Source: a virus
Virus record (IMG/VR): IMGVR_UViG_3300049596_000150
Span: 1-33,241 of that record
Length of the DNA stretch: 33,241 nucleotides
Reading direction: 5' to 3' (one strand)
A program made the position numbers and the translations under genes. This document shows, piece after piece, positions 8,164 through 10,762 of the stretch; within the stretch, counting starts at the first letter, position 1, and every line of letters starts with the position of its first letter. A model generated the notes under the pieces. It made no database searches and was not told where the DNA came from. It worked only from the letters and a program-made list of their open reading frames with translations.

Positions 8164-8958
8164 TTATATCCTTTGAGTTAATGGAAAAGTCATGGCTTTC
8201 GCCATTGCATACAATAAACCGGGACCGCAGACTTCAATTACGACATCTTCCTGCGCGAATTCACGGGCAAGGTTTTGAAAGTCCCGCACCTGCTGGCACA
8301 TCCACGGGGCAGCCTTGTATTTTGTTTCGTGGATTGTTGCCGTAATTACGTTTTCACCGTCGTTAGATTCCTGCTCGTAAACGTGGTGTTCGCCATCTGA
8401 ATAGCTGGAATCCATGCCAAACAGGTAGATCTGCCGATAACCCTTTAGCTTGGCCAGAATCATGGCCAACATGCCAACGGTCGTGAAACCGCCCATAAGA
8501 TGCACAGGGCGCTCGCGTTCGCTCTCAAGATACTCGTAGACACCCTCGGTCTGGACGTGCACCAGGTCCACTTTAAAGCCCTCTAAGGCATCAAATACGC
8601 AGGGATCACACTGGCTGGCTACGTAAAACTGAGTTTCCAGCTTGGGATTCTGCACAAACCGCACATTTTCCGGCCTGGCGTCGAGCATGACATGCCCATC
8701 AGGGACAATCCCGCGGGCAAGCAACCAATCATAGGACCCATTGACAGACCAGATCTTGGCGCCGTTCTGATGCCGAATCATTAGCTGCTGGACCGACTGG
8801 TTTAGACTTGGAGCACCCCCAACGATGCAGATGCTTTCTTGGTTAGATTCCTCACTGAAATCAAACCAAGAAAGCTGCCTTTTGCAAGACAGCTCCACAT
8901 TCCCCAGCATTACGCTGGGGAGTGTGTTTCCAACAACGTCTAGAACTGCATCAACCAT
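8164..8958 (-). CDS. MptE-like / DUF115-type protein (Maf-related fold)
   Basis: This 264-residue protein resembles the MptE-like (DUF115, PF01973) family, which includes 6-hydroxymethylpterin diphosphokinase and the motility accessory factor Maf glycosyltransferases. Visible motifs are CIVGGAPSLNQSV (44-56), a nucleotide-binding-like Gly loop; IWSVNGSYDWLLARGIVPDG (69-88); VMLDARPENV (90-99); and GGFTTVGMLAMILAKLKGYR (156-175) followed by IYLFGMDSSYSDGEHHVYEQ (177-196). The start ATG 8958 overlaps the stop of the upstream gene as TAATG. Position inside the head operon suggests it modifies a virion or host-surface component, or a nucleotide. Substrate is unknown. The family call is fairly secure, the reaction is not. 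Confidence 0.75.
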   Translation of the reverse strand: MVDAVLDVVGNTLPSVMLGNVELSCKRQLSWFDFSEESNQESICIVGGAPSLNQSVQQLMIRHQNGAKIWSVNGSYDWLLARGIVPDGHVMLDARPENVRFVQNPKLETQFYVASQCDPCVFDALEGFKVDLVHVQTEGVYEYLESERERPVHLMGGFTTVGMLAMILAKLKGYRQIYLFGMDSSYSDGEHHVYEQESNDGENVITATIHETKYKAAPWMCQQVRDFQNLAREFAQEDVVIEVCGPGLLYAMAKAMTFPLTQRI

Positions 8959-9521: not shown

Positions 9522-10762
9522 TTAAGCGATCAACACGCCGCTAAACTGCGGGCCGCTGGCGCAGAGATTGCCCGCCCACCCAATCAACTTAACAATCATT
9601 CTGTTACTTTCAGCCTTTCGGCTTACTGACCATCTTTCGATGGCGGGGGGACCGCTTCGGATCTCCCTCACTGGCTTCAATAAAGTTATACCAGTGTTCA
9701 GACTATCGCATACACCCTTCGGTGTCCCTCTCACTTAGTCGTTCACGCTGCTTTCGCTTGCGCCCTGTCGCCCGCTTCCGGGCTTCCAAGTCAATCAGAG
9801 AAGGTTTAAAGACGCCATTAATGCAAAGTAGGTTTAGCGTCTTGGTTAACGGCTTGCCGTTCGCCGCCAATCGGCACGAAATTCCGGTCAACGTGCGGCC
9901 GGAAGAAAATGTATTTCGTGTTCAGGAAAAACATGTGATTAGCCGTTGCTGCGCTGCCGATACCGCCGTCAAGCACAACATCGGATGCCATGCCCGCGCC
10001 GTAATACTTCAGCGAGGCAAAGCCAGCACCAGCAGACGAATTGCCACTATCCGAAATGCGCTGGATCGACTGCAACGATTGCAGATACAGACGATAGTAG
10101 TTATTGTCGGCAACGATCAGATCCGGCTTGTCGGTCCCGCGGATGAGCTGAACAGCGATCGAATCCATATACTGCTGGATGTTGGAAGCAGTAACAGCAG
10201 AACCGCCGTCAGTGGTTCCAGAGTAAGCAACAGAGCGCCAGAACGAGAACGTTGCCCGGTTGATACCGCCGTAGGTGCCAGACGAAGGAGCATCCGGCAC
10301 AGCAGCACCGAGTCCGGTGATGTTCTTGCCAGAGTTGCCGGTGCCGTCCAGGTAGATGTCAGAACCGATACGGTTCATCAGTTGCGCCTCGGCAACGTTC
10401 ATGCGACCGTCCAGCAGGTCGATAATCGCTTCCTTGCCGCTGTTCTGAATCATCTCCAGACCGCTGATCGATACCGCGGCAGCGTACTGGGTAATGCCGT
10501 ATTGAGCAGCCGAAATCGGGCTGTTCTGGCTGACGTTCAACACTTCATATCCGCTATAGCTGTTGGTGTTGTTGGTCGTGGTGTCGTTGTACATAACCTC
10601 TTGCAGGATGACGTTACCGCCGGAGAACGTTTTAACGTTTCCGCGTTCCTTCAGCCGGCGCAAGAGTGCGTTGTTGTTTGTTACGTTGTCGGCCAGCTCA
10701 CCGCTACGACTTTGAATGTTGGTCGCAATGATGTCGCTGATCGAGCTATTGGCAAAAGCCAT
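9522..10762 (-). CDS. Major capsid protein, interrupted by a group I intron (join of 9836-10762 and 9522-9596)
   Basis: Exon 1 starts at ATG 10762 (AGGAGC ribosome binding site) and encodes 309 residues up to ...QAVNQDA. Exon 2 (9596-9522) encodes IVKLIGWAGNLCASGPQFSG and four more residues before TAA. Together they give a 333-residue HK97-type capsid protein, preceded by scaffold and followed by decoration-like genes. Without splicing the frame reads KPTLH and stops at 9818, losing a C-terminus whose QDA-[VI]-KLIGWAGNL join is typical of such capsid proteins. The N-terminal MAFANSSISDIIATNIQSRS and the IGSDIYLDGTGN and VDRNFVPIGGER motifs are also typical. An annotation that ignores the intron would show a truncated 314-residue protein. 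Confidence 0.88.
9597..9835 (-). ncRNA. Group I self-splicing intron in the capsid gene (239 nt, no ORF)
   Basis: Exon 1 ends in AAGACGCU (9843-9836), which pairs over 8 bp with the intron guide GGCGUCUU (9816-9809), including the required U-G at the splice site (P1). UAAU (9820-9817), just 5' of the guide, pairs with the first bases of exon 2, AUUG (9596-9593), as P10. GACUA (9740-9736) pairs with UAGUC (9705-9701) as P7. P5 is GCCCG/CGGGC (9783-9779/9774-9770) and P8 is ACACC/GGUGU (9725-9721/9716-9712). P9 is CACUGG/CCAGUG (9696-9691/9674-9669). Two GAAA-capped hairpins follow (9643-9630 and 9623-9612). The last intron base is G9597. The intron carries no homing endonuclease. Subgroup not assigned. 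Confidence 0.92.

Follow-up and report, generated by a model that had tools for sequence, protein, structure and literature searches.

A compact group I intron very likely interrupts a viral major capsid gene and may encode a degron for the unspliced product

Results

In the 33,241-nt stretch of viral DNA analyzed here (the whole of IMG/VR record IMGVR_UViG_3300049596_000150, positions 1 to 33,241; hereafter the window), the major capsid gene is very likely interrupted by a group I intron with exact boundaries at 9835 and 9597, although splicing itself is inferred, there being no RNA data. Read in frame from the upstream exon, the first codons of the intron encode a short tail; we infer, without degradation data, that this tail is a degron that destroys truncated capsid protein made before splicing.

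A capsid gene restored by removal of 239 nt

Ordinary gene calling returns a minus-strand ORF at 10762-9818 that encodes 314 amino acids and ends in NQDA-KPTLH. The original prediction held that the capsid frame stops early while an in-frame C-terminal segment reappears 239 nt later, that removing 9597-9835 gives a 333-residue protein joined at a codon boundary, that the gene encodes a capsid protein, and that standard gene calls would report it truncated; all of these points are upheld. With 9835-9597 removed, 927 nt and 75 nt are joined in phase 0, giving 309 + 24 codons. The restored C-terminus, NQDA-IVKLIGWAGNLCASGPQFSGVLIA (IVKLIGWAGN...), aligns without gaps with the C-termini of intronless homologues (phages BUCT555, ppBjS10J-1, Mx8, ctMlz233, and MT835830) and does not differ from that of contig L009, a close relative in which the protein is uninterrupted. 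Comparison with related capsids confirms the 333-residue end, with 75 of 80 relatives running through the junction.

The gene product matches PHROG 9953 ("major head protein", E 5.5e-98). A structure model of the L009 homologue (pLDDT 77), used in place of an earlier model from a shallow alignment that we discarded (pLDDT 34.7), resembles HK97-fold capsids, with cyanophage A-1(L) and Mic1 as best matches (E 6e-9), and profile searches led to the same two structures. The truncated product lacks both a strand predicted by the structure model at residues 310-322 and the conserved WAGN segment. As a separate observation, a gene at 8164-8958 (minus strand), lying among the structural genes of the window, matches the MptE-like 6-hydroxymethylpterin diphosphokinase family (PF01973, E 1e-21).

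Table 1. Coordinates of the capsid exons, intron, and ribozyme elements in the window
Feature	Position	Strand	Remarks
Capsid exon 1	9836..10762	-	927 nt; residues 1-309; 3' end ...AAC CAA GAC GCU
Group I intron	9597..9835	-	239 nt; final G; without endonuclease ORF; basis: empty-site comparison, structure, covariation
Capsid exon 2	9522..9596	-	75 nt including stop; residues 310-333, IVKLIGWAGNLCASGPQFSGVLIA
In-frame tail at intron 5' end	9818..9835	-	AAA CCT ACT TTG CAT TAA, encoding KPTLH and stop; proposed C-terminal degron
P1 5' strand (GACGCU), in exon 1	9836..9841	-	U·G at splice site
Internal guide sequence, P1 3' strand (GGCGUC; relatives GGUGUC)	9811..9816	-	
P3 5' strand (CCUUCUC)	9798..9804	-	Double changes at 3 pairs
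P4 (CUUG/CAGG) around P5 (GCCCG/CGGGC)	9764..9790	-	
P6 and P6a (GCGC/GCGU)	9745..9763	-	P6 pair C-G/G-C swapped in relatives
P7 5' strand (GACUA)	9736..9740	-	Compensated GACUG/CAGUC in L258
P3 3' strand (GAGAGGG)	9726..9732	-	
P8 hairpin	9712..9725	-	
P7 3' strand (UAGUC)	9701..9705	-	
P9 and three peripheral hairpins (P9.1-P9.3)	9612..9696	-	
P10: first 3 nt of exon 2 (AUU) with AAU (9819-9817) beside guide	9594..9596	-	

Filled and empty sites among relatives

The insertion is exact. Among the 80 nearest IMG/VR relatives, gathered by protein search alone, 75 have an uninterrupted junction and 5 carry an intron at exactly the same nucleotide; pattern scans raised the number of intron copies at the residue-309 site to about 90 in all, a few contigs being counted twice. 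Because an interruption at the same nucleotide recurs in relatives found by protein search alone and across these copies overall, chance can be excluded. Copies with both ends located measure 231-248 nt and contain no endonuclease gene, and exon 2 is in frame in every copy whose 3' junction could be located. One could suppose a genuine truncation of the capsid gene, or else an assembly error, a reading favored by the 314-aa ORF of ordinary gene calling. Against it, the same junction, together with a covarying ribozyme, recurs in roughly 90 copies drawn from many metagenomes, and exon 2 keeps its frame as just described; we regard this alternative as very unlikely.

An empty site is present in the near-identical phage L009, whose exon 1 protein matches that of the window at 100% and whose exon DNA is 98.4% identical, without the intron. 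The two differ at 16 exon positions, five of which, all synonymous, fall in the interval -1 to +18 about the site; there are none in -100 to -1 or in +18 to +83. This cluster resembles a conversion tract and might reflect a recent gain or loss, the direction of which is unknown. On a tree of 134 capsid genes, intron presence requires at least 13 changes, 12 of them forced by well-supported branches, whereas shuffled labels need 38; the intron is thus clustered on the capsid tree yet has been repeatedly gained or lost.

We found no endonuclease ORF in the 239-nt intron, and no HNH_3, HNH, or GIY-YIG domain in the window record. HNH_3 was considered as the mobilizing endonuclease and rejected, being missing from the window and untied to the intron elsewhere (3 of 11 intron-bearing versus 3 of 14 intron-free relatives). 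Two contigs with the capsid gene (L242 and L243; CAIRTT010000545.1 and CAIRTT010000565.1) are binned in an Armatimonadetes MAG and are probably mis-binned phage, and others sit, probably also through mis-binning, in MAGs of several other phyla. As these MAGs span several phyla, we claim no host.

A covarying group I ribozyme without an Rfam match

The intron has the structure of a group I ribozyme, as originally predicted: P1 with its U·G pair, P3 to P9, the P7 pseudoknot, covariation, and the empty sites all support this assignment. In P1, the exon-final U pairs with a guide G, and this U·G is present in 32 of 32 distinct copies; the three pairs of P10 are likewise kept in 32 of 32. The position of the intron-terminal G, at 9597, is fixed by the empty-site comparison. 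The minimum free energy fold of the window intron includes P1, P3-P6, P8, and P9, with a z score of -3.7 and 0 of 200 shuffles as stable, and P7 forms a pseudoknot. Across the 32 copies, 96.0% of cells at 61 pairs are paired and 27 pairs have changed on both sides, with 245 doubly changed cells observed versus 71±8 in shuffled alignments; sliding the partners by 1-3 columns lowers pairing to 45.5% or less. Covariation is present in P3, P5, P6, P8, and P9. P7 is invariant among the 32 copies, and the divergent copy in L258 carries GACUG/CAGUC in place of GACUA/UAGUC.

The Rfam group I model (RF00028) gave no match in the window or in window-type relatives, even at relaxed thresholds. It does match other introns in the same capsid gene of relatives (63.3 and 62.8 bits), and a sub-threshold match occurs at a window-type intron site in L181 (E 7.8e-7). 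Since the model recognizes other introns in the same gene, we do not count its silence here against a group I assignment; RF00028 is a detection tool, not a defining property of group I, and has been described in a published study as incomplete for phage introns (PMC11878797).

Removal of the segment by a group II intron, an intein, or ribosome bypassing is all but ruled out, and we found no supporting evidence for any of them. An intein is incompatible with the stop codons in the frame, all of the structure is of the group I kind, and a 239-nt insert that folds as a ribozyme does not resemble known bypass sites.

The same intron core in other genes and at other sites

The core of the window intron shares 70-81% DNA identity with introns in a P22-like coat gene (MW202674), a ribonucleotide reductase (RNR) gene (CRP-118), and NrdD (SRB7757); only four isolate records match it. 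In MW202674, the coat fragments are annotated apart, and removing 268 nt gives one coat protein; the GenBank record (MW202674.1 16569-18084) lists two "P22 coat protein" genes and a hypothetical protein inside the intron. In IMG/VR, the same core occurs in P22-like and N4-like head protein, portal, tape measure, and RNR genes. In three tape measure genes (L146, L178, and L223), window-type introns lie directly 3' of an exon-encoded ALAA, and the stop codon is formed by the exon U and intron AA. A search with RF00028 of 50 unrelated phage records for an independent intron set found none.

Relatives of the window's capsid gene can carry two or three introns of two core types, at about residues 22-27, 49, 53, 62, 72, 84, and 309. 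Multi-intron relatives include L103 (3940-5900, plus strand), L121, L131, L136, and L099, and the first capsid-gene intron of L103 encodes a GIY-YIG endonuclease.

The read-through tail evolves as coding sequence

At the 309 site, the exon 1 frame continues for five codons into the intron and stops, within its first 18 nt, before the ribozyme core. The tail, given here and below up to its stop codon, reads KPT[L/I/F]H in 88 of 90 copies, KQTLH in one, and RYH in the divergent L258. Among 42 distinct introns, changes in the tail at codon positions 1/2/3 number 2/3/17, so that 17 of 22 fall at third positions, compared with 21/7/138 in the exon and 85/110/113 in the remaining intron (P = 3e-5, or 3e-4 counting distinct tail sequences only). 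The test used a loop-neutral scan pattern, as one with free third codon positions would bias it. Insertions and length changes begin immediately 3' of the tail stop codon. We conclude from the third-position changes, and from insertions starting just past the stop codon, that the tail behaves as coding sequence. Its conservation is shown; degradation as the reason for that conservation is inferred.

A conserved tail peptide might also be expected if the 314-aa form were a functional second capsid isoform translated from unspliced mRNA. This appears unlikely: 75 of 80 relatives make the long form only, the short form is without the WAGN segment and the predicted strand, and tails at other sites are degron-like and of unrelated lengths.

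Degron-like ends across insertion sites

Lon recognizes C-terminal hydrophobic-His ends such as ...RVTLH and ...DLSLH, the final His being decisive (PMC11986505), and in LarA five residues suffice (PMC10665427). KPT[LIF]H fits this motif (as defined in PMC11986505) in 88 of 90 copies. We took tails from all introns collected by core sequence and read them from open frames; 5' sites assigned by best P1 pairing were misplaced for P22-coat and N-terminal capsid sites. Of 28 insertion sites, 7 have hydrophobic-His ends, and these 7 all belong to the 15 sites in virion genes; in the same contigs, 0.8% of ORFs end this way (enrichment P about 1e-11). At each of the seven, a hydrophobic residue precedes His (0.38 expected per site, P 0.001). 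That degron-like ends are enriched is a plain result, but because we drew up the degron classes once the first tails had been seen, and sorted the sites manually, the P values are only indicative.

A second class of ends resembles the tmRNA tag. P22-like coat introns near the gene end encode ECANDQSFALVA, ENANDESFALVA, and NGANDKMFAMVA, each followed by a stop codon, and these tails are the three closest tmRNA-tag matches among 3765 ORF ends; such ends come from only a few contigs. Scanning viral contigs for them otherwise returned almost only short tmRNA-tag-like frames, e.g., ANDESFALAA. The P22-like coat genes of L141 (1761-1794), L186, and L181 have the tails ANDQSFALVA, ANDESFALVA, and ANDKMFAMVA, and the likely guide GUGG overlaps the LVA codons. 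At the P22-like coat FHVD site, the tails YFLLAA, YLLAA, FALTA, STYLH, and STYIH differ in length by whole codons while keeping LLAA/LTA or LH/IH ends. As an outside check, in the two mycobacteriophage virion introns verified by RT-PCR, the read-through tails end in ATAAA in the LittleE capsid gene (L588, JF937101) and in LAAAAA in a Baka tail gene (L589, JF937090); AA ends occur in 2.1% of ORFs. RNR tails (GTNP) are not degron-like, and neither are those of T4 td (ending FLG) and nrdB (ending SFA).

The main objection is that the group I intron is real but KPTLH no degron: an early stop would shield the core, while RNA structure or shared descent would hold the sequence. Phage introns usually have an early in-frame stop. 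The T4 tails also favor this view, as does the C(AYUAA)G hairpin loop that holds the stop codon at 5 of 7 His-ending sites. Set against it are third-position variation in the tail but not in the remaining intron, length changes beginning right after the stop codon, whole-codon variation with kept ends at the FHVD site, and the rank of the ANDESFALVA-type tails as best tmRNA-tag matches; an RNA-only reading must also face the hydrophobic residue before every His and the lack of the loop at both the window site and the residue-84 site. On balance, we lean slightly against this objection. The degron step nonetheless rests on indirect evidence, and RNA constraint through the C(AYUAA)G loop could account for some of what is seen at other sites.

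Discussion

Proposed mechanism and its implications

We propose that, in the pre-mRNA, the exon end GACGCU would pair with the guide GGCGUC to form P1, an external guanosine held in P7 would attack after the exon-final U, and the 3' OH released in this step would in turn attack after the terminal G, joining the exons into a message for the 333-aa capsid protein. These chemical steps, inferred here, are taken from group I introns at large. Ribosomes arriving at an unspliced junction would instead read KPTLH and stop ahead of the core, protecting its fold, and KPTLH would mark the truncated protein, which has lost its final beta strands, as a substrate for a Lon-type protease; that this protein is degraded is likewise an inference. 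In a bolder reading, which we favor by a modest margin, small group I introns of virion genes encode degrons—hydrophobic-His ends for Lon, tmRNA mimics for ClpXP—such that polypeptides made before splicing are destroyed before they poison assembly.

Bacterial ribosomes are already translating while splicing proceeds. Because the two coincide, interrupting the most abundant structural gene should fill the cell with truncated subunits that poison assembly. Degron tails, if real, would explain why phages can live with introns in capsid genes, and a mobile element assumed to be silent would carry a protective protein signal and its own protein quality control. We found no description of intron-encoded degrons in the literature searched, most subscription papers being outside that search. 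As the standard Rfam model misses this intron family, many capsid and coat genes of environmental phages are probably annotated as truncated.

Comparison with known systems

Group I introns in capsid genes are as such already known: RT-PCR showed splicing of one in the mycobacteriophage LittleE major capsid gene (Pope et al. 2013, PMC3706429). The one claim of the original prediction that needs correction is accordingly that a capsid gene is a less usual intron site, given LittleE and the P22-like and N4-like head genes described above. What is new is the recurrence of compact, endonuclease-free, Rfam-silent introns in several unrelated head protein genes. The LittleE intron resembles that of the window in its host gene, the U before the intron, the G at the intron end, and a degron-like read-through tail (WNSVATAAA), but it is about 819 nt long, carries an endonuclease ORF, and lies at another gene position, whereas the window intron has 239 nt and no ORF; we saw no sequence relation between the two.

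The introns of MW202674 coat, CRP-118 RNR, and SRB7757 NrdD share the P3-P8 layout of the window intron and differ in gene and site. That of SRB7757 has an apparent ORF, HNH-like by eye only, unlike the ORF-less window intron, and the RNR intron tails differ from the window tail in not being degron-like. The RF00028-type introns located elsewhere in the same capsid gene (L121, L136, and L103) are of the self-splicing type in the same host gene, with the tails RNLH and VYLH at two sites, but their core sequence differs from that of the window and Rfam detects them (63 bits).

On the protein side, KPTLH resembles RVTLH, a tested end among the C-terminal His degrons of Lon (SulA, LarA; PMC11986505, PMC10665427), and the P22-like coat intron tail ANDESFALVA resembles the tmRNA tag ANDENYALAA and tmRNA-like tags in viral contigs such as ANDESFALAA. 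Unlike these Lon and tmRNA degrons, the tag proposed here would be encoded in cis by an intron and would appear only on the unspliced product.
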